DNA from: Eudorina sp. 2006-703-Eu-15
Lineage: Eukaryota; Chlorophyta; Chlorophyceae; Chlamydomonadales; Volvocaceae
Direction of reading: 5' to 3'
Assembly: GCA_003117195.1 (NCBI GenBank)
Contig: BDSI01000159.1
Span: forward strand, 177,038 to 241,037
Length of the DNA stretch: 64,000 nucleotides
Both the position numbers and the translations under genes were made by a program. Of the stretch, positions 3,089-63,515 are shown piece after piece. A model generated the notes under the pieces. That model saw nothing but the letters and a program-made list of their open reading frames with translations, searched no databases and was not told the DNA's origin. The first letter of the stretch is position 1. Each line of letters starts with the position of its first letter.

Positions 3089-5553
3089 TCAACTGCCCGG
3101 CCCGGCCCCCTTCCCCGTCCCCGTCCCCGCCGCCGCCCCAGTCCCGGCCTCCGCCCCCTTGCCCCCCGTCAGCCCCTGCTGCTCCTCCTCGCGCTGCCGC
3201 AGCCACTGGCGCGCCAGGAAGCCCTGCACCGCCGCCTTGACGTGTAGCGCCGCGTGGAAGTGCGCCGCCGTGTACTTGGGGAAGGCGGCGGCCCCGCGGC
3301 CCGGCAGCCGCTTCATGTACTTGGCCGTGAGGCGCTCCTCCTCGATGTCCGGCAGCTCGCAGCCCACCAGCCGGCCGGACAGCGCGTGGAGCGTCTCCAG
3401 GAACGTGACCTGGTTGTTGGCGTGCACGGGAATGTCCACCGACATGATGACGGCCTGGGTGGCGGTGCGGCTGGGCACCCCCTTGGTGCCCAGGGGCGGC
3501 TCCAGCTCCGCGATCACCAGCGGCAGCTTGGAGGCGTGCGTGACGCCCGAGGCGGTGGGGTCCACCGCCGACCAGGCATCCACGAAGCAGCCCACCATGG
3601 AGCGGGACACGGGCAGCGCCTCGTCCGCCTCCTCCACCACCATGTTCTCCAGGATGACGGCGATGACCAGGTTGAGCATGATGAAGGCGCACAGCACCAC
3701 GAAGACAGGGAAGTAGATGGCGGCGACCGCGGGGCTGAGCGCGCACTGGTTGTCGGTGGCGTTTGCGGGGAGGAGGGGCAGGAGGGGGTCCGAGGGGTCC
3801 AGGTAGGTGCCGCCGGGGATGAGGGTGGCGGCGGTGGGGGGCGTGGCGGTTGTGTTGAGGGTGACGGTGGTGGTGACCCGCACGCAGTCCCGGGTGGTCA
3901 TGCAGTCCATCATGATGCCGCCCCAGCTCTCCCCCGTCAGGATCCTGAGGCGGCAGCGGAGGCGACGGGGTAGGGGGGGCCAAAGGGGAGGGTCACGAGG
4001 ACGCAAGGGACACGGGTCACGGACCAGGGCGAAGCAGGGGCCCCCAGTGGCGCCGAGATGGGCTGGCCTGCACCGCCCAGCTAGGCTCCGCCCTGCACCC
4101 TGCACCCTGCACCCTGCACCCTGCACCCTGCACCCTGCACCCTGCACCCTGCACCGCCCAGCTAGGGGAGGGAGGGCCACCCACCTCACGAGGACCAACA
4201 TGGCACTGGGGAAGTTATTGAAATTGGCATGCCGGTTGAGGAAGTCGCCATACACCATGTCCCCGAACAGGTTCATCCCAATGACTGCGAACATGAAGAA
4301 GAATAGCAACATGATGCCGCCCACGTTGACGAGGGCGGGCAGGGAGTGCACCAGCGTCATCAGCAGCCGCTGCATGCCGGCGGCCTGAGGCGGAAGGGGT
4401 CAGCCAGGGGAGAGCAGGGCCGAGGAGGGGCGGGAGGAGGGGAAAAGATGGGAGGAGGGGGGCAGTGGCCAGGATGTAGCCAGGATGTGTGGGTGCGGCG
4501 CAGCGAGACAGGGCAAGGAGGCGGTGAGGGTGCAAGTCTGCAAGAAGGTCTAAGGGGGACCCCGGAGGGGATGCCAGGCGCTGGAAAGATGCCGCACAGC
4601 GCAGCACAGCCGACGGGGCAGCACTGCTCCGAAACCCACGCACACGCCGCCCCACCTGCAGGGCCCACACTCCGCAACTGCCCACCTGCCCTGCTGCCCT
4701 GCTGCCCACCACACTCCGCTCCGCGCACCCGTTTGATGAGTCGGACGACTCGCACCACCCTCAGCACGCGCAGCACGGGCATGAAGCTCAGGTTGCGGGT
4801 GCCGCTGAAGTCCAGCGCCACCGACACAGCGGATGCGGCCGCCACGAAGCAGTCGAAGCAGTTCCATCCGTCGCGGAAGTAGCCCAGCGGCCCGAAGGCG
4901 ATCAGCTTGAGCGCCGCCTCCGCCACGAAGATGCACGTGAACACCAGGTTGCTGTACGACATCACGGCCTGGTGGGCGCCAGAGGGCGGCAGGTGCGCCA
5001 GTCGGGTCAGGTCCGCTGCAAGCTCTGCGCAGCCTTCTCCACTCCACCACCACAATACCCTACTAGGAGCTACCTAGCTGCCTCGCCCCCTGCCTAAATA
5101 GTAAACAGCTACGGTACCTACCTACCTAGCACACCTACATAGCCCGCCTACCTAGCACACCTACCTAACTCGCCTACCTACTACCCGCTGCCTGGTTGCA
5201 TTCCTTCTCCCCTTGCCCGGCATCCCGCCGACCTATCTACCATCTCTTCCCCCGCGCCCCCGGCCCCCGGGCCCCACCCCTCCGCCCGACCCCACCTGGA
5301 ACCCCTCCGACATGTCAACATGCACCAGAGCCATCAACACCGTGTTGGCGACGATGGCCATCAGGACCACCTGGCCGAAGGCGGCGCTGCTGACGGCCTC
5401 GAACAGGACCAGGCGCCAGCGGGGGCCCTCGGGGGCGGGCGGCCGGCGCTGCATGGAGGTCCGCAGCAGCAGCTTCTGGACCTCCACCCAGTCCGACTGC
5501 TGGGCCGTGACGAAGACGGAGGAGGACATCTGCTCGCGCTGCAGCTCCGAAAC
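3089..5553 (-). CDS. Channel exons 14-17: repeat IV and cytoplasmic tail
   Basis: Exon 14 (5296-5553) holds the III-IV linker and IV S1. Exon 15 (4729-4968) encodes S2-S4 (VLRVLRVVRVVRLIKR). Exon 16 (4185-4384) is S5. Exon 17 (3089-3944) has the pore motif ILTGESW, an extracellular Thr-rich loop with two NxT sequons, S6 (AFIMLNLVIAVILENM) and a ~170-residue tail. Near the end a basic AVQGFLARQWLRQR stretch resembles an IQ (calmodulin-binding) motif; that is inference. The stop is at 3089-3091. Confidence 0.88.
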
Positions 5554-8500: not shown

Positions 8501-11500
8501 AGCTCCAGGCCCCCGGCAAGGAGGTCCGCCCGCGAAGACTGCCCGGACCAGGCCCCGGCCCCGCCTCCCCGGGGGCGGCCGTGGAGGCAGCTGCAGCCGG
8601 GCGCAGAGCCGGGCCCGGGAGCGTGGCCGTGAGGGTGGTCGGCTCCGCACCCTCCGACTGGAACAGCAACCCCGATCCTGTACCTCGCGGTTTCGCCGCC
8701 TCGTCGTCCCCAGGGGGCGCTGCCCCCGTCCCCGCCGCAGCCGCGCCGCGGACCCGAGTCCCGTCGATGTTCTTCCGCCCCTGCCCCTCCCCCTCCTGCC
8801 CCTCCCCCTCCTGCGCCTTGTCCGCCGAGAACCGATCCGCGAGGAGCGAAGAGGAGTCGCCCCCACCGGCGGCGCCACGGCCGCTGGCCCCGTCAGCTGA
8901 CTCCACGGACCGGTACTGCTCCAGGTACCAGCTCGCGATGCGGCCCGAAGCTGTGAGGTCCAGGTCCGCGCCGCCGCCCCTGCCGTCCATCGCCCCGCCC
9001 CCTCCCCGGCCCTGGTCGCGCCCATCGCCGCTGCCAGCCCCCCAGCCGCTGGTGTGCCCTCGTGCTGCTCCGCCGACCCGCGGGTCACCGACCCCCGGGT
9101 CGGGGGCCTCCGAGCCCCGCTCCGAATCCGTCCCCGACTCCTTGCGCTGCAGCAGCAGCTTCTCCGCCTCCAGACGCCACGGGTGGGTCGAGGCGGTGGG
9201 ACCCAGGGCTGCTGCTGCGGCGGCGGTGTCTTGCGGCGGCGGCAGCCCCTTCGGATTGGCGCTGGACTCCAGCTCCAGGGCATCGTCCCATGGGTCAGCG
9301 TCCTCGGGGTCGTTATCTCGGGCCTTATCCCGGCTGGGGCCCTGGATGTCCACCGCTCCTGTGGGCCAAAGGCCAAAGGATCAACACACACACAGGTACA
9401 AACGGGGCGGAGGCAGAGCGGCTCAATGTTCAAAATCGACATACACACTCAGGGTCAAGGTCAAGGTCAGGGTCAGGGTCAGGGTCAGGAGCAGGGTCAG
9501 GGTCAGGGTCAGGGTCAGGGTCAGGGTCAGGGTCAGGGTCAGGGTCAGGGTCAGGGTCAGGGTCAGGGTCAGGGTCAGGGTCAGGGTCAGGGTCAGGGTC
9601 AGGGTCAGGGTCAGGGTCAGGGTCAGGGTCAGGGTCAGGGTCAGGGTCAGGGTCAGGGTCAGGGTCAGGGTCAGGGTCAGGGTCAGGGTCAGGGTCAGGG
9701 GCAGGGGCAGCCTGACCGGGTGCCCCAATCGGTCGAGACGGGCGCCACCGCCTGGGCCACCGCCAGGTGTGACGTAGCTCTGGTGGCGGTGCGGCTGGGG
9801 ACGGGAGGGAGGGAGGGGCCCGCGATGAGCTGCAGGGGGGTCCTCCGGCGAGTTAGCTTCGCTCCGGGGTGAACAAGAAAGGGAAGACGCTTCGGGATGC
9901 ACCCCGGCCAGGCTGGAGGCTGGAGGCTGGAGGCTGGAGGCTGGAGGCTGGAGAAACCATGTCACCTGGGGTGTGTTGTACGACACTCTTAGGTGATGCG
10001 GTGGTGTGGGAGATTAGGGGGGCAGTGCACGACAGCTGGCCATCCCTCAAAGCCGCCGCTGTCCGGGCCAGGGTGCCGCTCCCAACCACCTTGTCAGCCC
10101 CCACACGTTAACCCCAACCACCGCAACGATCCCAACCACCCAACCACCGCACCACCCACCCGTAAAATTGTCAAGCAGGATGGCAATGAAGAGATTGAAC
10201 ACCAGATATGTCCCGATGAGGATGACCCCCACGAAGTACAGCGCAGCCCAAGGCGATGATGTACGAATGCTGTCGTACATGACGTTGTTCCAGTTCTCTC
10301 CCGTGAGCAGCTGAAACACCGTGTACATGGCCCAGAGTACGTTGTCGAAGTTCGCCCGCGGCACCTGCGACTTGCCCACCATGGCCAGGTACTCGCAGCC
10401 GCCGCCCGCGGAGGTGCTGCTGATGGTGCTGGTGGTGGTGTTGCCCTCCGCACCCGTCGTCGCGGCGGCGGAGGCAGCACCGGCGGCGTCACAGAAGCGG
10501 TCGCAGTAGGCGAGGTCGTTGTAGAAGGAGCCCGGCGCGTCGATCCAGTTGCCGTACTGCTCGTCCGAGCAGGGCAGGTAGCAGTAAAAGTGGTTGGGGC
10601 AGCCGCCCCACACCGCCTGCCCCAGCGGGCACACCGGACTGGCGCCCGCCACGTAGTCGCAAAACATAAACCTGAGGAGCGGGGAAGGCAGGGGGGCGGG
10701 GAGGGCGGGTGGGAGGGGGAGCGGAGCAAGTGCCGCCCGAGGGGCCCCAGGGGACAGACGCAGACCGAGGCTCAGCGCAGGGGAGGGGCCCGAGTCGGGG
10801 GGTGGGGAGGGGATTGCATCCGGGAATGCATGCTGTCCGCCCCAGGGCTACGAAATGGAGGGCGGGCATCCCAGTTCCCAGTTCCCAGGGATTTAGGGTT
10901 TAGGGTTTGGGTTGAGAGGCGCGGGCTCTGGACCATTACGGCAGCGAGTTGATTCGGAGGGGGCGGACTGGTCCGGACACTGGCGCAGTGCTGCGCCCCC
11001 CGCAGCTGACCCTCCGCCTCACAGACCCCCGCCGTCCCCTCAGCAGACAGCCCCGAAGGGCGGAGGGGAAGGGTGGGGGGCTAAGCGGTACCTCCCTGGA
11101 ACATCCAGCTGTCTTTTTAATGCGGCACTCTCCCCCCTCTACTGGCCTGGCCTGGCCTAGCCCTTTACTCCCCACCAAATTGTTTCACTTGGTAGGAGTC
11201 CCTTCCCTCTCCCATATGGGGGACCCTTTCCCCTCCCCAGCCCCAGCCCCAGCCCCACCACCGCCAGCCCCAGCCCCACCGGTATCCGAACAGCTGCATG
11301 CCCATCAGCGCCGCGATGAGCATGAAGAGCCCCATCAGCATCAGCAGGTAGGCGGTGGAGCTGACGGACTGCAGCACCGCCGCCAGGATGACCGCCAGCT
11401 CCCGCCAGCTGCGAGCCAGGCGGAAGACGCGCAGCAGGCGCAGCATGCGCAGCACGGACAGCGGCCCCAGCCCCGCCACGGTGGGGACCAGGTCCACGAT

Positions 11501-14500: not shown

Positions 14501-17246
14501 TGGGGTGGCAGGTGGGAGGGCAAGAGGTCACCGCGGCAAGGGGGGCGTGGGGTGGCGCCGGGGTGGGTGTCAAGTCACGCACCCCTGCTCTGCCTCCTTC
14601 CTACTGTACGAACACACACACACACACGGTAGGGGTGGGTTCGGGCGGATTCCTCGCCAAACAAACACATCTCATATACGCAGATACGCTCAATCGTGAA
14701 CTCACATGACGCCAGCGGGCCGCTGCACACATCGCCGGCAAAGTCCTCCGAGACCATGTACGACACATTGCTGAGGGCGATGGCGCCGCCCGGCAGCGGT
14801 GTGGCGACGGCGTAGTCGAAATTCGGTTCGCCGCACCTGCACGTGCATCCATGCATGCATGCATCCATGCATTGGGCCGCACCGCGAAGCCCACGTTACG
14901 TCCACTGCCGACACCCGCCCACCGCGTGGCTCAGTGAAGAAACACGGTTGAGCGGCCCCTCCCTTTTCCCCTCCAATACATTCTTCCCCGGCCCTGTCGT
15001 TTCCCGTTCACTGCTCCCCTCCCCCGTCCCCCCTCCCTCCCTAGAGTGCGACCCCATCCCCATCCCCATCCCCATCCTGAGCAGCGCTGCGGTCTCGCCC
15101 CCACATGCACCGCTGCCCCTTTCCCGCTGACCCACGGGGCTGCAACCACGACCTACGCACTCACACACACCCACACACTCCATCAGCCCACCCTCACCTT
15201 CCCCCCCTTCCCATCCTTTCCTGCCTCAAGCGCCCACCCAGCCCCACACCCAGCCCCCCGGCTGCCGCACCTGTTCCGCAGCGCCCCCGCAAACAGCTGC
15301 ACCGCTATGATGCCCCACACGAAGAACGTGAAGGCGCACAGCAGCATCACGTCGATGAGCATGGGCATGGAGGCGATCAAGGTGGTCACCAGCACCTGGG
15401 GGCGGGGAGCGGGGGGAAGGGGGGGGAGGGGCGGGGTAAGGCGAGCATCGGGCGGTGCGGTGGGTGGGGTGGGTTCTTCTAGGTCCGCGCACCTTCATGC
15501 CCCGGACTCGGGTGATGGCCCTCAGCGGTCTGAGCACCCGGACGGTCCGCAGGGCGGTCATGTTGCCCGACCTGTGGGAGGGGGGCGCCATCGGGGGCGC
15601 GGGGGGCCAGGGGGCGCGGGGCCGGGGGGATCAGCGCAGCGCAGCTCAGCTCAGCCCTCCGGCCGCGTGTGGACTGCCCCCCCCCCTCGGTGCCCCTGCA
15701 GGCGCTGCAAGAACGCCACCCTCCACCCTCCACCCCTCCACCCTCCACCCTCCACCACCCCCTCCGGATGCCCGAGTCACACACACAAAAAGACACACAC
15801 AAAGTCACACACACACACGCACGCACGTGAATATGTCCACATAGCCCAGGGCCACCACCAGGAAGTCCACCAAGTTCCAGCCTGGGTGAGGGGACCGAGG
15901 AAGTTGGGGAGAGGGGCAGGGCCGGGGCGGGGCGGGGCGGCGCAGAGCAGAGCAGGTTATCGGGTGGGTGCTCTTTTGCGGTTTCGCTGTCTTGGCTGAC
16001 AACAGGACAAGGCTCAGGACTCTGGGCGCCTTGGGGGTGTGTGAGAGGGACGGAGGGGGGCGAAGGAGGGCCGCCTGCGGGACGGCTGCCATGCCATGCC
16101 AGGCAGCAGCGGTCACGCCGGGTGACTGCAGGTGGACAGTACGACAGCCCCAGCGGGTTGCAATGCGGGTTCCGCAAGCATCGCCTCTAAGACAATCAGC
16201 GAACGAGGTCGGCGCGTCTTCGGGTGCCGGGGGACAGCCCACCAAGATACCCATTCCCACCCCCCACCCCTCCCGGTGCTCTGTCGCCGGGATCCTGCGC
16301 TCTGGCGGCACCAGGGCGGCAAGGCGGCGGCGGCGGGTGCCGTCTGCGAAAAGGCGCCATCGGGACTGCTGTGCGCACATGTCACTGGGAAGGCAAAGCG
16401 GTGGCCACGGCTGGTCGGAGCTCAGCTGTGGCGGGGCTGGCGCGCGGCGCCCTCGGGTTTGGCAGCTGCACACCCTCTTCCCGTCTGCACCCCCCAGATG
16501 CCCCCATAAACTCCCCCCCCCCCCCCACACACACACATATAGAGATGCACAAGTGGCCGCCGAGCTGCCCCCACACCGCAGTGCCCTAGAGCCGGACCGA
16601 CCCCGGGCCCAGCGCGTCATACCGTCGCGCAAGTAGGTTCCCGGCGCCAACAAAAAGCCCATGGAGACGATTTTCAGCAGCGCCTCAACGGTGAAGATGG
16701 CCACCTGCAGGAGACGCATTGGAACAAGGGTCGCTGCAGCGTCCGAAGCGCAGGGTCCTGGACGAACGGTTTCGCAACGGATTGTAACATTGCGCCGGCG
16801 ACCTACCCATACATACTCGAACTTGTTTAGTATCCGTCCAAGAAGCGTTTGATTAAAATCTTGCCGGTTACTGCTCAAACCGAGCGTAACGCTGTTGCAA
16901 AGGATGCAGGCGAGGATGAAGTTCTCAAAAATTGGCGAGTGAGTTAGGAGAATACAGTACCGTCGGACCAAGCTGCTTTTCCGTATGCAGAGAAGAGAAT
17001 ATTCTGGGTAAGTGAATGCCACCGCCTGCGCACAGTTTTACAAAAAATGTCATGTAACTGTGACCCAAGGTCTCACCCCATTGGATACCTGGGGGCCCCA
17101 CATACCGCGAGATGTGCATTTTTACTATTTTTGCGAGTTGGGCTTGTAGGGGTCCCCGGCTGCGTCATGTCCCCAGAGCGCTTCATGGTCGTCGACTTCC
17201 GTGCTGGAACGGAAACCTCAAGCGCGGTTTCTCCAGGTGACACCAT
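3089..17246 (-). CDS. Four-repeat voltage-gated calcium channel alpha subunit (Cav type)
   Basis: Pore-forming voltage-gated cation channel of the plasma or flagellar membrane. I derive 17 exons: 17106-17246, 16807-17025, 16623-16704, 15827-15881, 15493-15571, 15271-15395, 14706-14836, 13785-14422, 13007-13272, 11280-11564, 10160-10671, 7216-9358, 6330-6564, 5296-5553, 4729-4968, 4185-4384 and 3089-3944. They total 6,465 nt (2,154 residues) with consistent phases; only the 14422 acceptor is doubtful. Four S1-S6 repeats are visible, each with Arg-rich S4 segments. The pore loops read TLESW (about residue 333), TGENW (799), SLELW (1584) and TGESW (1875), i.e. the EEEE ring of Ca2+ channels. The first exon supplies the ATG at 17246 and a basic Ser/Thr-rich N terminus. 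Chlamydomonas has flagellar channels of this class (CAV2), but orthology is not assigned. Family assignment is firm. Confidence 0.92.
4091..4156. repeat. Heptamer tandem repeat (CCCTGCA)n
   Basis: About nine perfect copies of a 7-bp unit lie in intron 16 of the channel gene, flanked on both sides by the word GCCCAGCTAGG. Confidence 0.9.
5563..5605. repeat. (GACA)n microsatellite
   Basis: About ten GACA units with one GTCA interruption, just upstream (gene sense) of the acceptor of channel exon 14, where it supplies a TGTC-rich pyrimidine tract. Confidence 0.9.
5935..6072. repeat. Imperfect GC-rich minisatellite
   Basis: Imperfect copies of a unit near GGGACGGGACAGGGGCGGGG lie in the intron between channel exons 13 and 14. 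The plus strand is strongly G-rich. Confidence 0.75.
6330..9358 (-). CDS. Channel exons 12-13: II-III linker and repeat III
   Basis: Exon 12 is 2,143 bp. Its first ~450 codons form a low-complexity Gly/Ala/Ser/Pro linker, far longer than animal linkers in relative terms. It then encodes III S1-S5, with S4 reading LRVLRTLRALRPLRAVSR. Exon 13 (6330-6564) carries the pore motif VASLELW and S6. The 12/13 splice avoids an in-frame TGA that lies just inside the intron at about 7214, which supports the junction. Confidence 0.88.
6568..6735. repeat. Imperfect G-rich minisatellite
   Basis: Interleaved units of GGGGTGCG and GGGTGTTGAG fill the start of the intron upstream (gene sense) of exon 13, directly next to its acceptor. 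Confidence 0.8.
9451..9711. repeat. Hexamer array (GGGTCA)n
   Basis: About 43 nearly perfect hexamers in the intron between channel exons 11 and 12. All strand-specific open frames through it (SGSG, GQGQ, RVRV, LTLT) are repeat artefacts. The plus strand is G-rich with regularly spaced GGG triplets. Confidence 0.95.
9911..9952. repeat. Heptamer repeat (GGAGGCT)n
   Basis: About six copies of a 7-bp unit in the same channel intron as the hexamer array. Confidence 0.85.
10160..13272 (-). CDS. Channel exons 9-11: repeat II
   Basis: Exon 9 (13007-13272) encodes S1-S2. Exon 10 (11280-11564) encodes S3-S5, with S4 reading VLRMLRLLRVFRLAR. Exon 11 (10160-10671) holds a Cys-rich extracellular loop, the pore motif LLTGENW and S6 (VFNLFIAILLDNF). 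The exon 9/10 junction restores the common RYFRDG-type segment. The two introns contain long minisatellites (11717-12447, 12690-12911). Confidence 0.88.
10886..10914 (+). repeat. Interstitial telomere-like TTTAGGG patch
   Basis: Two perfect and one variant TTTAGGG units in the intron between channel exons 10 and 11. TTTAGGG is the plant-type telomere unit, whereas Chlamydomonas reinhardtii uses TTTTAGGG. Too short to be a chromosome end. Confidence 0.6.
11653..11699 (+). repeat. Intronic dispersed repeat, copy a
   Basis: Matches the family core TATAGGAAATTGGTAGAC followed by CTGCGCTGCTGCCAGAGC. It lies antisense in the channel intron between exons 9 and 10. A second, partial copy (TATAGGAAATTGG end only, opposite strand) lies at 13715-13740 in the next intron. 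Confidence 0.75.
11717..12447. repeat. 28-bp minisatellite, about 27 copies
   Basis: Unit close to GATACACGGGTGACAGGGAG plus CGAGGGGG, with C/T variation (GAGC versus GAGT) and G-run length variation. It lies entirely in the channel intron between exons 9 and 10. One unit at about 12150-12180 carries a long poly-G expansion. Long Pro/Ser open frames on the minus strand are a by-product. Confidence 0.95.
12690..12911. repeat. 30-bp minisatellite, about 7 copies
   Basis: Unit GGCACCCGACCCCCGCGACC plus CTCTCTGCCA, with alternating variants (CTGACA, CTAACA; GAACCC, GGCCCC). It lies in the same intron as the 28-bp array but is unrelated to it. Confidence 0.93.
13522..13549. repeat. (GGGTC)n pentamer run
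   Basis: Five to six pentamers in the channel intron between exons 8 and 9. A related GGGTCAGGTC run lies at 42138-42168. Confidence 0.85.
13785..17246 (-). CDS. Channel exons 1-8: N terminus and repeat I
   Basis: Exon 2 carries S1 (ENFILACILCNSVTLGL). Exon 3 has S2 (FTVEALLKIVSMGF) and exon 4 S3 (WNLVDFLVVALGYVDIF). Exon 5 is the S4 sensor (TVRVLRPLRAITRVRGMK), exon 6 is S5, exon 7 is an extracellular turret and exon 8 the pore (ITLESW), S6 and the start of the I-II linker. The linker is Gln/Arg-rich, then Ser/Gly/Ala-rich. The acceptor of exon 8 is the only ambiguous junction (14422 favoured; a second in-frame AG lies just upstream). Confidence 0.85.
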
Positions 17247-55439: not shown

Positions 55440-57175
<1,736 letters not shown>

Positions 57176-57566
57176 TGTTAACAAGTCAAACTGGTTCTTA
57201 CTGATTAACGTATATGTCCTTCAAGATTATGAAACTGTCAGACATTGTGCGGGTGTACGTAGGGACCGAAATCGTCGGCCAAGTAGTGACCAATGGCGCA
57301 GGTACGAGTCCTCCTACTATCGTCTTTTTTATCTTTTACAGCAGCCGCCAGGGATTGTTAGAATTGCCCCCCTTGTGGACCTAAACCCAAGCCCCGCTTT
57401 CACGTCCTCCAGCGATGTAATATATTCCGCAGAGAATGACCTCAGGGCCGCACTTCGACCGTATACTACTGTATCGCCCCTTAGAACTTTTGCCACCAGC
57501 TGGCATAAGAGAAACACCAAATGTACGCGACCTGGCACACTTAATTGCAAGCAAGCCTCTAAGAAA

Positions 57567-58861
57567 ATGGCACCCAAACCCACATTCCTTGTGGGGAATT
57601 TCGACATCAGCGGCTGCCTCTGCCTCACTATTCTGTCGGCTATGGCAGCGGTGCAGATCGTGTGGTCGGTCCTCACTTGTGCATTCAGAAAGACCTCTGA
57701 GACTCCTGTGGTGGTACATTCCCCAACAGAGAACAACACGCAGTTGCTGAAGCGCATGCCCTCGGTGCAGCGCTTCTCGCCAGCCTTCTGGGCGCTCGGG
57801 CGCTGGGCGCAGACTGTCGTCGGTGGAAGCCTCGGCCCCAAGGAAGCCCTTCCTTATCGACGAGAATGGGTGACCATGTCCGACGGCGTTGAGGTGGCCC
57901 TGGACTTCAAGGAGGCGCAAGGCGACCTGCTCCCTAAGGACGCACCACTGGTTCTCGTGCTGCACGGCTTGGGTACATCCCTGACCTGGACCGACTCCCC
58001 AGACCAACCTGGCCCAGCTGTCAAATGACTCATTCACCCGACGATGTGATGCTCCACGCCGCAGGTGGCCACTCCATGACCAACTCGTGCAATTCAATGA
58101 CTGAGGTCCTTGCCCGCCGAAACTGGAGGGTGGTTGTGTACAACCGCCGGGGCCACGGGGGCACGTCGCTCATGCCGCCCCCTGCTGCCAGCAAGGCACA
58201 GGTGAGGCAACCGCCACCGCGTGGTGTAGTGATGGGATAATGGGACGCACGTAGTGTATGCCATGTATGGGGGCCGCAACCTAGCGACTAAGCACCATCG
58301 GCCATGGCAAGAACGCCTGTCCCATCACCCGGCGTGCCTCGCAATCAGCCGCACCGCACCTGGAACTGCAAGTCACCCACCTTTTGAGAGGATTTAAGTT
58401 ACGTTAGTCGGTGCTGCACGCAGGATGGCATCAATGTCGACGACGTGAAGCTCACTCTGGGCGGCACCAAGGCGTTCCCGCAGCACGTGGACCTGGACGA
58501 CATGCGCTGCGTGGTTGCGCACGTGGCTGCCAAGTGCGGGGGAGGGGGGTGGCAAGGATTGAGCGGGACCCTGGATCCGTCGTCCTTGGATACCGGTCAG
58601 CATGCACGTATGTAGCGTGGCAGTAGCCACACTCAGCCGTGTAGCAATGCAGGTGTGGGGGCGGCGGACTGGCGGCTCTGCGGCACAGCGTAGGGTTTGA
58701 GGACGGACCGGGCCTGCCGTGCAGGTACCCCGATGCCCCCAAGGCGCTGCTGGGTCTGTCGGCTGGCGGAAACCTGTGCGTGTACTACCAGGGGGAGTGT
58801 GCGAAGGAGTCGCCATTCAAGGCGGCCGTGTCCGTGTCCAACGGCCACGACCTGATGCAGC
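57567..58861 (+). CDS. EMB8/ABHD1-3-type alpha/beta hydrolase, 5' part only
   Basis: Serine hydrolase of the EMB8/ABHD1-ABHD3 (YheT-like) family, usually membrane-anchored and acting on lipids or acyl esters. Four exons: 57567-57972, 58065-58201, 58424-58533 and 58725-58861 (790 nt, 263 residues so far). Visible features are an N-terminal membrane anchor (LCLTILSAMAAVQIVWSVLT), the PLVLVLHGLG oxyanion strand, GGHSMTNS, WRVVVYNRRGHGGTS and the nucleophile elbow GLSAGGNL with the catalytic Ser. Exon 4 ends with a clean donor (C/GTGAGT), so the gene should continue for another ~150 residues including the catalytic Asp and His. I find no such exons in the next 5 kb. Either they lie beyond 64000 after a very long intron, or the gene is broken by insertion. 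The ATG at 57567 is the first plausible start; an in-frame open stretch extends upstream. Confidence 0.85.
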
Positions 58862-60369
58862 GTGAGTAACACACCTCTCGGCTCCACCCATCCAACACGC
58901 CACACCCTGCCGCCCTTGCTTGCCCCTACACCCACACACAGCTTCCCCGTTCCCCGTACCCACCCCGCCGCCAATGCTCTGCCCCAATGCCGTGTGGCGT
59001 GCCTTCGGAAGTATTGCCGGGTCCCTTCGTTTTTCTCAGCCACCAATGCTTTCCACGAGGATTGTTGTCCGCAGTTTCTCTTACTGCCTCTGCGGGTAGT
59101 ATTCCCTGCGCCGCTAGCGTAGCGGCTCGTACGGCAGCCTTGTCTGCCTGTTCGTTGTAGGTGACTCACTTAGGGGCCGATTTCCGGGCGCGGACTGCCA
59201 AAGTGACCCGGTCTGACCGTTAGTGCCTTTGCGACGAGGATTTTTCGAGTTAACCTACGAGACATTCCAAGTTGTAATCTCAACAAGGTAAGCTATAGAA
59301 GCTATGTAACAGGTAATATAAATGTCTACGTATTGCATCAGAAAACGATTGGATCTTCGTGCGACGCGGCGCCGAAACTGCGGGAACGGACCCGGCATGA
59401 CAAATCACCCGTCCATTCTCCCACAGTAGCCGCTATGCCCCCAAGCCCCGGCGACTTTAAATATGATCCCTACTGATCTTGTTTTTGCAAGAATGGCATC
59501 CAGCGTAGTAGTTCTGAGAGTTAGAACTCCCATCGAAGTCAGGAACTCCCGAAACCCACCCTAAACCCGTGCTGTGCACGCCATACACCCGACTATTCAC
59601 TTTCATGGACAAGACAATGCGCTGCCCCTCGCTGTGCATCCCAACTGAAGCCCTCATAACGCTAGGGGCGGCGGTTGTGCCAGAAAATCTGCTATATGGA
59701 CAGTGCGCTGCGAACTCTGCCAGGGCGGCCTTGCCACAGGCATTGACAAACAATAATAGCGCATGTAAGGCGCTCTGCCGCACAGCTCGGCCCAGGAGCG
59801 TGCGAGCGAACTTGTACGGCGGGTCCGCTCTCAGCGTAGGAAGCGCACACGCTTTGCGGATTTCAAAATGCCATCTAGATCGGACAGGTAATCGGGCCCC
59901 TTAGACCTCCAGGGAAAAAGATGACGTCAACATCGTGTGCAGCGTTTCATTCCTCGCAGCGCACGAATGGACACGGTAATCGTTTCCAACGATGGGCCCC
60001 CGTAGACAAAGAATTGGCCCAAAGACATTCTTCCCGTCCTTGCACGTGCGAACCCTGCTGTACAGTCCCCTCCACAGCACCACTCCCTGACCACAAAGTC
60101 GCTCTGCGTGTCGGTCTTTTGGCCACGCGCCGCCTGTGACAATCTGGTTACACTACCCATGTGTCCACTTATGTACAACCGCATGTCTCCAGCATGGCAG
60201 ACACTCCGGTACGACGCTCAAGCACTTCATGCCGCAAGCCAACGGCCAGCACACCCCAACACATCCCACCGCGCTTTAGAGGCTAGCCGTTTCCCAGGTA
60301 TGGTACTCGCCCATGAGTGCTGACCACCCACCACTGCCCGCCCGCCGACGTCCATGCAGCGACCCCATC
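58862..60369. other. Lower-GC region after truncated hydrolase; unassigned minus ORF
   Basis: No continuation of the hydrolase is visible. A minus-strand open frame of about 109 codons lies at 59457-59783. It continues upstream in frame through the 66-bp repeat (RKACALPTLRADPPYKFART) and ends with ..GCHSCKNK. I do not recognise it; it may belong to a mobile element. Confidence 0.4.
59798..59863 (+). repeat. 66-bp direct repeat, left copy
   Basis: GCGTGCGAGCGAACTTGTAC through GCGGATTT. It matches 63115-63180 at 65 of 66 positions (one G/A difference), in the same orientation, 3,317 bp away. Confidence 0.92.
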
Positions 60370-60729
60370 TTAATCGTCCCCAAGCAGCTCCGGCTTCACT
60401 TCAACGAGCACCCAGGATTCTGACTCCAGACCCTCATTGCTCAAGCCCCATTCCTCCAGCAAGCTCTTAGCAACCTCGGCAGAGGCCGGCTCCGGCACTT
60501 CATCTCCAGACTCTACCATGTAGGCCAGGCCAGCGGACAGGATGTACTCAGCGTCCTGAGAAGCGTCAGCCACGGACTCGCCGCTACCGATCCCAAAGGA
60601 GAACTGCGGAAAAATTGCGCTGACAGGCCCCTTGGCGAACTTCCGGACGCATGCAGGATACGCCCTTCCGCGCAGCGACTCGATGGAGCTTGAGCTGCAG
60701 CTAGAAGTCGCCTGGCTTTCCTGGGACAT
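60370..60729 (-). CDS. HicB-like antitoxin-fold protein
   Basis: A 119-residue frame from the ATG at 60729. After a Ser-rich start it follows the HicB pattern: a YPA start of the first strand (near residue 24), a charged strand, an IFPQ turn, a GSGES motif where HicB has the G-T/S-G-E/D-T/S signature, a helix (VADASQDAEYILSAGLAYMV), then VPEPA where HicB has IPxPS, and a late VLVEV strand. In bacteria HicB neutralises the HicA mRNA interferase. Here it lies 58 nt downstream of the HicA-like frame on the same strand, the canonical hicA-hicB order. GC content is lower than in surrounding genes. It could be translated from a two-ORF mRNA, or joined to the upstream frame by a possible intron with donor near 60830. 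Homology is from pattern only. Confidence 0.55.
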   Translation of the reverse strand: MSQESQATSSCSSSSIESLRGRAYPACVRKFAKGPVSAIFPQFSFGIGSGESVADASQDAEYILSAGLAYMVESGDEVPEPASAEVAKSLLEEWGLSNEGLESESWVLVEVKPELLGDD

Positions 60730-60787
60730 CGTGCAGCCCCTTCCTGTCCGAAGAGGGAGTTCATACAATGATATAGTGTTTTATTCC

Positions 60788-61045
60788 TTATATGACATCT
60801 GTTAACAGTTTCAGACACGCAGATACCCACCTTCTGAGCTCTCTCCTGGCAGACGCCTGCACTTGAATCGCCTTCTTAGGGTTGTGGTCAACAAACTTGG
60901 CACCTGAACTTGCGTGCCAGAAGTGGATATGACCGTTGCTGGCCTGCTTTATTGCGTGAAACCCCAAATCTGTAAGTGCCGCGTGCAAATCACGGAAGTC
61001 TTTGGTAGCTGTCGAGAGGTCAATATGAATACCTTGGTGCGCCAT
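60788..61045 (-). CDS. HicA-like small protein (mRNA-interferase fold)
   Basis: An 85-residue frame from the ATG at 61045. It shows the HicA/dsRBD-like layout: an N-terminal helix (FRDLHAALTDLGFHAIKQ), an NGH motif where HicA proteins carry the catalytic G-[ST/N]-H histidine, two short strands (HFWHASSGAKFVDHN) and a basic C-terminal helix (SARRELRRW) like that of phage-type HicA variants. In bacteria HicA cleaves mRNA and is held inactive by HicB. The next frame on this strand looks like HicB. A GTGGGT donor-like site lies inside the 3' part near 60830, so the last dozen codons could be intronic. It is equally possible that this is a domesticated or inactive fold. No activity is shown by the sequence. 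Confidence 0.5.
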   Translation of the reverse strand: MAHQGIHIDLSTATKDFRDLHAALTDLGFHAIKQASNGHIHFWHASSGAKFVDHNPKKAIQVQASARRELRRWVSACLKLLTDVI

Positions 61046-61797: not shown

Positions 61798-63515
61798 GTG
61801 AGGAGGGAAGAGGGAGGGGCGGGGGCAGGTGGGGTGAAGACCACGTAACGAGACAATGTACATCGAGCAGGGGGGCCCCCTTCACGCCCGCATGCCGTAA
61901 CCCCTGGCCCAACAATCCTCCCGTCCGTCCGTCCGGCTGCCTGTCCTGTCCTGTTCCGGGATCCCACCCCTCTGCCACATAGGGCCTGGAAGCCGCCCGC
62001 TGTATTCCCCACCCGGGCCCCACCGCTCTGACTGCGCCGACACGGCAGCAGTGGCAGCCCGAGCAAGGAGGCGGCGGCGGTCGCGCCGTCCGAGTCCGAA
62101 TCCGTTCCGGCCAAAAAGAAGTAAGCGACTTGTTCCTGCTGTTATTGCTGCTGCTCCCCGCCCTGAGCCGCGTTGTCGTAGATTTCATTCACAGCTTTCC
62201 CTCACCTCGCCCCCCTACCCTCCACCCTCTGCATTCCGATGCCCCGGCCTGTACGTGTGATATCCCCTTCAACCCGCCTTTGGTAGCTACCCCCCAGCCG
62301 CTTCTGTTCGCCGTGTGTGGCCTCACCCCGCCCCCGCCCCGGCCTAAACATGGATATTCCCCCCACCCGGGCCGCTTCTCTCCTCTTCACAGATGCATTC
62401 GGAGAACCCAAACGAGGGGCAGCCACAGATGACGCCGACTGAGGCTGTGGCTGGCCCTGCCGAGCACACTCAGTTGGCGGCCGTGCGCGCCTCCACCGCG
62501 CCCGGTACCATGCAGCAGCACGGCCATGGCCAGCAGCGCCGCGCGCCGCGGCTTATTCACCGACAAGATGCTGGGGGCGGTGGGAGCCAAGAAGGTGCCC
62601 TCGGCAAGAGCTCCCTGGCGCCACATAGCCAGGAGGCGGCGGCGGCGCACATCAGCGGCTCGCACGTGCAGGCCGTAATGGCTGCGCGCGTAAGCCTCGC
62701 CGCGCCAGCGGCCGCGGCGGCGCATGCGGCGGACGATAAGGGCGGCCCGGCGGGCGCCACGGTGGTGGGAGGACAAGGTGCGCTGCGGCCGGCAGCAGCA
62801 CACTCTTCTTCGATCTCTCGAAACGGTTTCGCTCCTCTGCATTCGGGCCACCTCCGCATTCCCTTTCCTCTCCCATTGTGTGCGCAGCTCCCGCTATTAC
62901 CCGGCATGACCTTCCACAAGCGAGGGTGAGGGTATAGGTGGCTATGTATTTGGAAAGCATCGCCTGGTTGCTCGATTCACCCTGGTTGGTTCACCTCCCT
63001 CGGTCCCCTCGCCTCCTCGGGTTCCGACATATTTGATCCCAGTTTCAACCACTGCCGTCTCGGTGCGCAGGCGGCGGCGCGGACGGCGCGCCGGGTTCGG
63101 GGGCGACGCCATCAGCGTGCGAGCAAACTTGTACGGCGGGTCCGCTCTCAGCGTAGGAAGCGCACACGCTTTGCGGATTTGAAAAATTCGATAGAGGATG
63201 AAAGTTTGAGCCGGAAAAGTGACTTGGGGTGCAAAAAGCACCCGTCCTGCCAGACAGTTGCCGGACGTAATTGTAAGAATCAGTTACTCCAGAATGTGCC
63301 TTAACTTTTAGAAGGGACGTCGTCAGGTTGTTCACAGCTCGTCTTTTTCGTTCACTCACCATGTTGTCGAGCAGTTTTTTATGCTTGCTAAGTCGGAGTT
63401 GGGGGTTGTTAATCATTTTCTGAATGAGATGAAGGACAGCATTCTATCTAGGTATGGTATCTGCGACATGCATGCAAACACACATATACGGCACATACGC
63501 CGTCCCCCCCCCCTA
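61798..63515. other. Unassigned region, fragments only
   Basis: Several open frames (62393-62929 plus; 62387-62851 minus) are Ala/Arg/Pro-rich and not convincing. The right-hand 66-bp direct repeat lies at 63115-63180. I can name no gene here. Confidence 0.3.
63115..63180 (+). repeat. 66-bp direct repeat, right copy
   Basis: Partner of 59798-59863 (65/66 identity, same orientation). Both copies are followed by an A-rich stretch (CAAAA, GAAAA). Confidence 0.92.

Follow-up and report, generated by a model that had tools for sequence, protein, structure and literature searches.

HicAB modules are described from bacteria, archaea and phages, with the toxin gene placed before the antitoxin gene (PMC11594946). 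A second system of relevance is that of the green-algal bicistronic mRNAs, in which leaky scanning operates on a small first ORF with a weak start context and few ATGs precede the second ORF (PMC11291117). The words HicB and toxin are absent from the main text of the latter source, and a Chlamydomonas hicAB pair may sit unnamed in its supplementary gene list. HicB-like proteins of Chlamydomonas (CHLRE_17g698500v5 and others), some of them named HicB-like antitoxin in UniRef, belong to the same HicB family as the protein studied here; unlike the pair reported below, they have no HicA partner named in the records found. A literature search combining HicA, HicB and Chlamydomonas, which covered few subscription papers, returned no paper, and broader ones gave nothing on algal HicAB among the matches listed, as judged by title and start of abstract. 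Among the matches listed for the gene ids of the C. reinhardtii HicB proteins, all came from the partial term g054200 and, according to their titles, concern other organisms.

Here we analyze a hicA-like and a hicB-like frame within a 64,000-nt stretch of Eudorina sp. DNA (hereafter, the window; C159:177038-241037, where C-numbers denote contigs of the same genome, an assembly of 181 Mb in 3033 contigs). Gene order, location on one strand and a short gap are as in bacterial and archaeal HicAB (E. coli K-12, S. pneumoniae 5YRZ and B. pseudomallei 6G26), and so are the HicB fold, the size of HicA and the position of its catalytic histidine. The locus departs from bacterial HicAB in its eukaryotic nuclear setting, a probable intron and frames predicted to overlap, as well as in a HicB with a Ser-rich N-terminus and without the DNA-binding domain, and a HicA with an altered GS motif. 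With the green-algal bicistrons (PMC11291117) it has in common a small ORF1, a short inter-ORF distance, an unfavorable −3 base at ORF1 and, here only if spliced, the lack of ATGs before ORF2, although the pairs named in that source are different (e.g., TOM22/SDHAF3).

Results

Two adjacent frames in an algal gene environment

The initial annotation proposed two adjacent minus-strand frames, hicA then hicB, with a 58-nt gap, and both ORFs lie precisely there (Table 1). This distance, from the unspliced hicA stop to the hicB ATG, compares with 45 nt in hicAB of E. coli K-12. The lower GC content attributed to the pair (0.576 in 60-62 kb) holds relative to most of the window but not to the adjoining 2-kb bins, which are also low (0.587 and 0.600). 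Three of the nine window ORFs scanned contain domains, all of the ion-channel type and in separate ORFs on one strand, which by their domain content are exons of a voltage-gated calcium channel. Plus-strand ORFs at 57156-58240 resemble exons of an alpha/beta-hydrolase (VLVLHGLG, YNRRGHGGTS); the first of them yielded no Pfam match at E 0.001. No RNA family scored above the gathering threshold in 57-64 kb of the window. A 77-nt direct repeat, 95% identical between its copies at 59792-59868 and 63109-63185, flanks the pair with a spacing of 3.3 kb; its first copy recurs unchanged on C81 and at 77% identity on C52. The repeat may stem from the duplication of part of a gene or mark the border of a mobile element.

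Table 1. Features of the window, in window coordinates
Feature	Position	Strand	Description
hicA-like ORF, unspliced reading	60788..61045	minus	85 aa + stop, ATG start; PF07927 E 0.012; paralogues at C16, C35
Predicted hicA exon 1	60831..61045	minus	215 nt; encodes HicA core, where His39 (NGHIHFWH) aligns with catalytic His of GSH
Predicted phase-2 hicA intron	60744..60830	minus	87 nt; AAG/GTGGGT ... GGACAG/GAAG
Predicted hicA exon 2	60701..60743	minus	C-terminus KGLHDVPGKPGDF, then stop; overlaps hicB start by 29 nt, different frame
hicB-like CDS	60370..60729	minus	119 aa + stop; ATG at 60729; A at −3, T at +4
Ion_trans ORFs	3092-4399 (with GPHH), 10050-10847, 15808-17037	minus	domain scan

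Paralogous pairs in the same genome

In this genome, hicA immediately precedes hicB in the same orientation at three independent loci (C159, C16 and C35) that cover two HicB clades. The window HicA matched that of C16 with E 6.9e-7 and that of C35 with only 0.997, while C16 and C35 matched each other with 2.3e-10. In a database of ten stretches, protein-level matches were recovered for C159-C16 (1.7e-10) and C16-C35 (4e-14), and none was found for C159-C35. The C35 hicA has an in-frame stop just upstream of the HicA core, and no start was found for it. At C21, hicB is open, and a putative short remnant resembling HicA accompanies it in the expected position and orientation; with E 0.5-1.2, this match is suggestive only. 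Broken pieces of hicA and hicB lie 37 kb apart on C41, which also carries a partial hicB of clade II (see below; L018 4244-4432; L028 1504-1691); another partial hicB occurs on C479, within a 3.1-kb stretch 99% identical to that of C41. C752 carries a 4.4-kb stretch that is 99.4% identical to the window locus; small indels disrupt its hicB, and the copy was taken as an allele or assembly duplicate. A search of the genome with PF07927 gave two weak, short matches, on C27 (E 0.028) and C141 (E 0.47), and missed the known hicA copies, hence being insensitive here; tblastn of the stretches around these two matches with three HicA queries and one HicB query produced nothing below E 4.

Homology and constraint of HicB

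The best Pfam family for the window HicB ORF was HicB_lk_antitox (E 0.0014, 19.2 bits, under the curated cut-off of 27 bits), and PF15919 was matched at E <= 1 by 13 of the 15 aligned algal HicB proteins, with a best value of 2.9e-6. The C35 copy matched no Pfam HicB family, and neither window ORF had a match in NCBIfam. Against PDB sequences, the single HicB sequence reached 5yrz at E 0.34, whereas four of the six matches obtained with the alignment were HicB (best E 0.014). Structure comparison further revealed in the window protein the partial RNase H fold domain of the type that binds HicA (PMC11594946), at 18-22% identity to solved structures; the last elements of the model (119 aa) are a strand at 101-110 and a short helical stretch of a few residues. 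The HicB identity is strongly supported by profile, fold and profile-profile comparison. Codon analysis of six pairs rendered dN of 0.40-0.61 and dS of 1.3-3.1, with codon position 2 the least changed in all six, which evidences purifying selection on HicB. In one HicB relative, P0006, the frame continues upstream and Val replaces the start Met of the others; its start may have moved.

Homology of HicA and its catalytic motif

For the window HicA ORF, HicA_toxin was the best Pfam family (E 0.012), closely followed by DUF4248 (0.016), with a score of 16.1 bits that is under the cut-off of 27. Profile-profile comparison backs the HicA-like as well as the HicB-like identity put forward in the initial annotation: hhalign against HicA reached 91.5% (E 8.8e-7, calculated for a single comparison), as opposed to at most 4.4% in 150 column shuffles, which supports HicA homology at the sequence level. 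The fold check held for HicB and was indecisive for HicA, for which HicA or HicA-sized chains of HicAB complexes occupied ranks 1, 2, 4 and 7 with E of just 0.49-1.7; in a second comparison, with a low-confidence model, glyoxalase-type proteins ranked above HicA. Sequence searches of the PDB with HicA found no HicA.

The NGH histidine motif noted initially does align with the bacterial GSH motif. His39 of the window protein aligns with a position occupied by His in 32 of the 46 bacterial sequences, and this residue is kept at C159, C16 and C35 and is His in all five algal rows aligned. The two residues before it, Gly and Ser in 45 of the 46 bacterial sequences each, are Asn-Gly, Asp-Gln and Gln-Gln in the algal ones, so that the position of the Gly two residues ahead of the histidine holds Asn at C159, Asp at C16 and Gln at C35. 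In one bacterial HicA, toxicity depended on this Gly (PMC11594946). A set of longer bacterial HicA ORFs (L122-L138, 75-91 aa) has GSR in place of GSH in 11 of 17 and an FHRPHP motif in 9 of 17, and is nearer to the algal HicA than the canonical set (hhalign 82.3 vs 29.9%). Synonymous divergence of hicA has reached saturation, and the pattern of change over its codon positions argues only weakly for coding constraint.

Relatives in other algae and age of the pair

The initial annotation had suggested looking for the same pair in other volvocine genomes. HicB relatives do occur in other volvocine and Chlamydomonas species, on the basis of protein records: these come from five named algae, and none of the 15 proteins found is named as prokaryotic. 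The HicB tree (19 rows) resolves two clades (100/100 each). The window HicB groups with C. reinhardtii XP_001691432.1 and proteins of C. incerta, C. schloesseri, Edaphochlamys and Pleodorina; the other clade (clade II) contains C16, C35, C21 and the partial C41 copy together with C. reinhardtii Cre17 and Cre01 and Edaphochlamys, C35 being grouped with C. reinhardtii Cre01.g054200 (98/94). The linkage of hicA to hicB, known from this genome alone, extends over both clades, so the pair is probably older than the clade split. Contigs of 1336 nt from another source encode HicA and HicB versions with 95% and 96% identity, respectively. The protein search with HicA gave one candidate; the named algae yielded HicB proteins alone. 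Scans for a viral or prokaryotic donor in viral_contigs and genome_contigs, with one narrow pattern each, retrieved 21 and 27 pattern matches, none of them confirmed.

A predicted intron and the start codon contexts

We next considered GT-AG pairs of at least 55 nt with a GT[AG]NG donor that render a HicA longer than 50 aa ending beyond the donor. A single candidate intron in the window passes this test, in phase 2; splicing would give HicA the C-terminus RRELRRKGLHDVPGKPGDF and place its stop 29 nt into hicB, in a different frame. C35 has a candidate intron at the homologous place (phase 2, 103 nt, GTGAGT...CTCCAG), the layout of which was read by eye and then measured; its spliced product would end NVPEEL over the hicB start. 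At C16, no GT[AG]NG donor gives an extended HicA. An AG is found 11-14 nt before the hicB ATG at all four loci.

Joining the predicted exons yielded mixed outcomes. With hhalign, aligned columns rose from 48 to 66 and probability from 59.4 to 82.3 against the 17 longer bacterial ORFs, and from 49 to 68 and 85.4 to 91.5 against the joint bacterial set; the canonical set gave 43 columns both times, with probability going from 32.3 to 29.9. The HicA Pfam score changed from 16.1 to 16.3 bits upon joining the exons, i.e., the predicted rise failed to appear, and HMM scores of single sequences did not improve consistently. The spliced C35 form was indistinct from shuffles with bacterial HMMs (60, 95 and 54 of 1000 shuffles reached its score; 180, 84 and 68 for exon 1 alone). 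An intron near the hicA end is probable.

The predicted intron holds both ATGs present between the two start codons, its removal leaving none in 226 nt. Sequences of this length lack ATG in 6.5% of shuffles (mean 2.16), and the absence is thus only mildly unusual. At −3, hicA has C at both C159 and C16, and hicB has A at C159, C16 and C35 and G at C21. At +4, hicA has the favorable G in the window and C at C16, and hicB has T at all four loci. Accordingly, the −3 contexts fit leaky scanning, whereas those at +4 do not. An ATG with G at −3 that opens a two-codon frame 84 nt before the window hicA ATG, identified by eye, would, if transcribed, also count against a leaky-scanning model.

Discussion

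With moderate confidence, we propose that hicA and hicB form a nuclear pair expressed from one spliced bicistronic mRNA, in which leaky scanning would set the protein ratio and HicB would block the RNase activity of HicA. The pair would be of bacterial or archaeal ancestry and have been kept in the algal lineage since before the HicB clades split. Both genes would be transcribed together and the predicted 87-nt intron spliced out; as a result, hicA would end inside hicB in another frame, with no ATG left between the starts. By analogy with other green-algal bicistrons, ribosomes may start poorly at hicA, which has C at −3, and most of them may scan on until hicB, which has A there, making HicB abundant and HicA scarce. 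Homology suggests that HicA is a small ribonuclease of dsRBD fold with its catalytic His in place, and that HicB could bind and block it through the HicB fold. As nothing follows the toxin-binding domain in this HicB, regulation would depend on the ratio of translation rather than on DNA binding. A likely use would be release of the RNase under stress or virus attack.

The most serious rival, which we nonetheless consider unlikely, is that only HicB works, as a domesticated HicB-fold protein, the hicA-like frame being a decaying relic or a uORF tuning HicB translation. Four loci have an open hicB, but hicA is startless at C35, a short remnant at most at C21 and a fragment at C41; this reading is also favored by the HicB-only yield of the named algae, the single HicA candidate and the loss of GS from the GSH motif. 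Relic status is, however, opposed by a hicA that is open at C159 and C16, by the nearly identical HicA and HicB encoded by the 1336-nt contigs of another source, and by copies that remain alike at the protein level and keep the histidine in all three cases.

Two further scenarios are quite improbable. In a selfish toxin-antidote element, loss of the locus would harm cross progeny and antidote-only copies would be resistant relics; dispersed copies, an antidote that is open where the toxin decays and the copy split over 37 kb of C41 would all suit such behavior, yet clade II is old, as the grouping of C35 with C. reinhardtii Cre01.g054200 attests. Similarly low is the chance that hicA and hicB have separate promoters and mRNAs and that the predicted intron does not exist. 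Without splicing, hicA still reads as a complete ORF of 85 aa, and hicAB of bacteria has been described with a double-promoter mechanism (PMC11594946); against this, 58 nt would leave little room for a nuclear terminator plus promoter, and phase-2 splice signals recur at the same place in C159 and C35. As for bacterial contamination joined in assembly, a possibility raised in the initial annotation and in line with the occurrence of HicAB in prokaryotes and phages (PMC11594946), the calcium-channel exons on the same contig, the copies on contigs of 1.1-1.5 Mb (C16, C35 and C21) and the algal relatives make it very unlikely, to the point of being negligible.

Returning to the spliced bicistronic pair, loss of the Gly-Ser residues and of the HicB DNA-binding domain implies that it may work like bacterial HicAB without being a textbook member. 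More tentatively, and as a possibility we hold at below even chance, this would be a working eukaryotic HicAB on a spliced mRNA with overlapping frames, where leaky scanning replaces operon autoregulation, serving Chlamydomonadales as a defense switch or persisting as a selfish element. The idea is directly testable, since the model organism C. reinhardtii has three HicB records in two clades. If true, an old nuclear pair would show that the HicAB module can be adapted to the way eukaryotes express genes, where leaky scanning and splicing would assume the control of stoichiometry that an operon gives.
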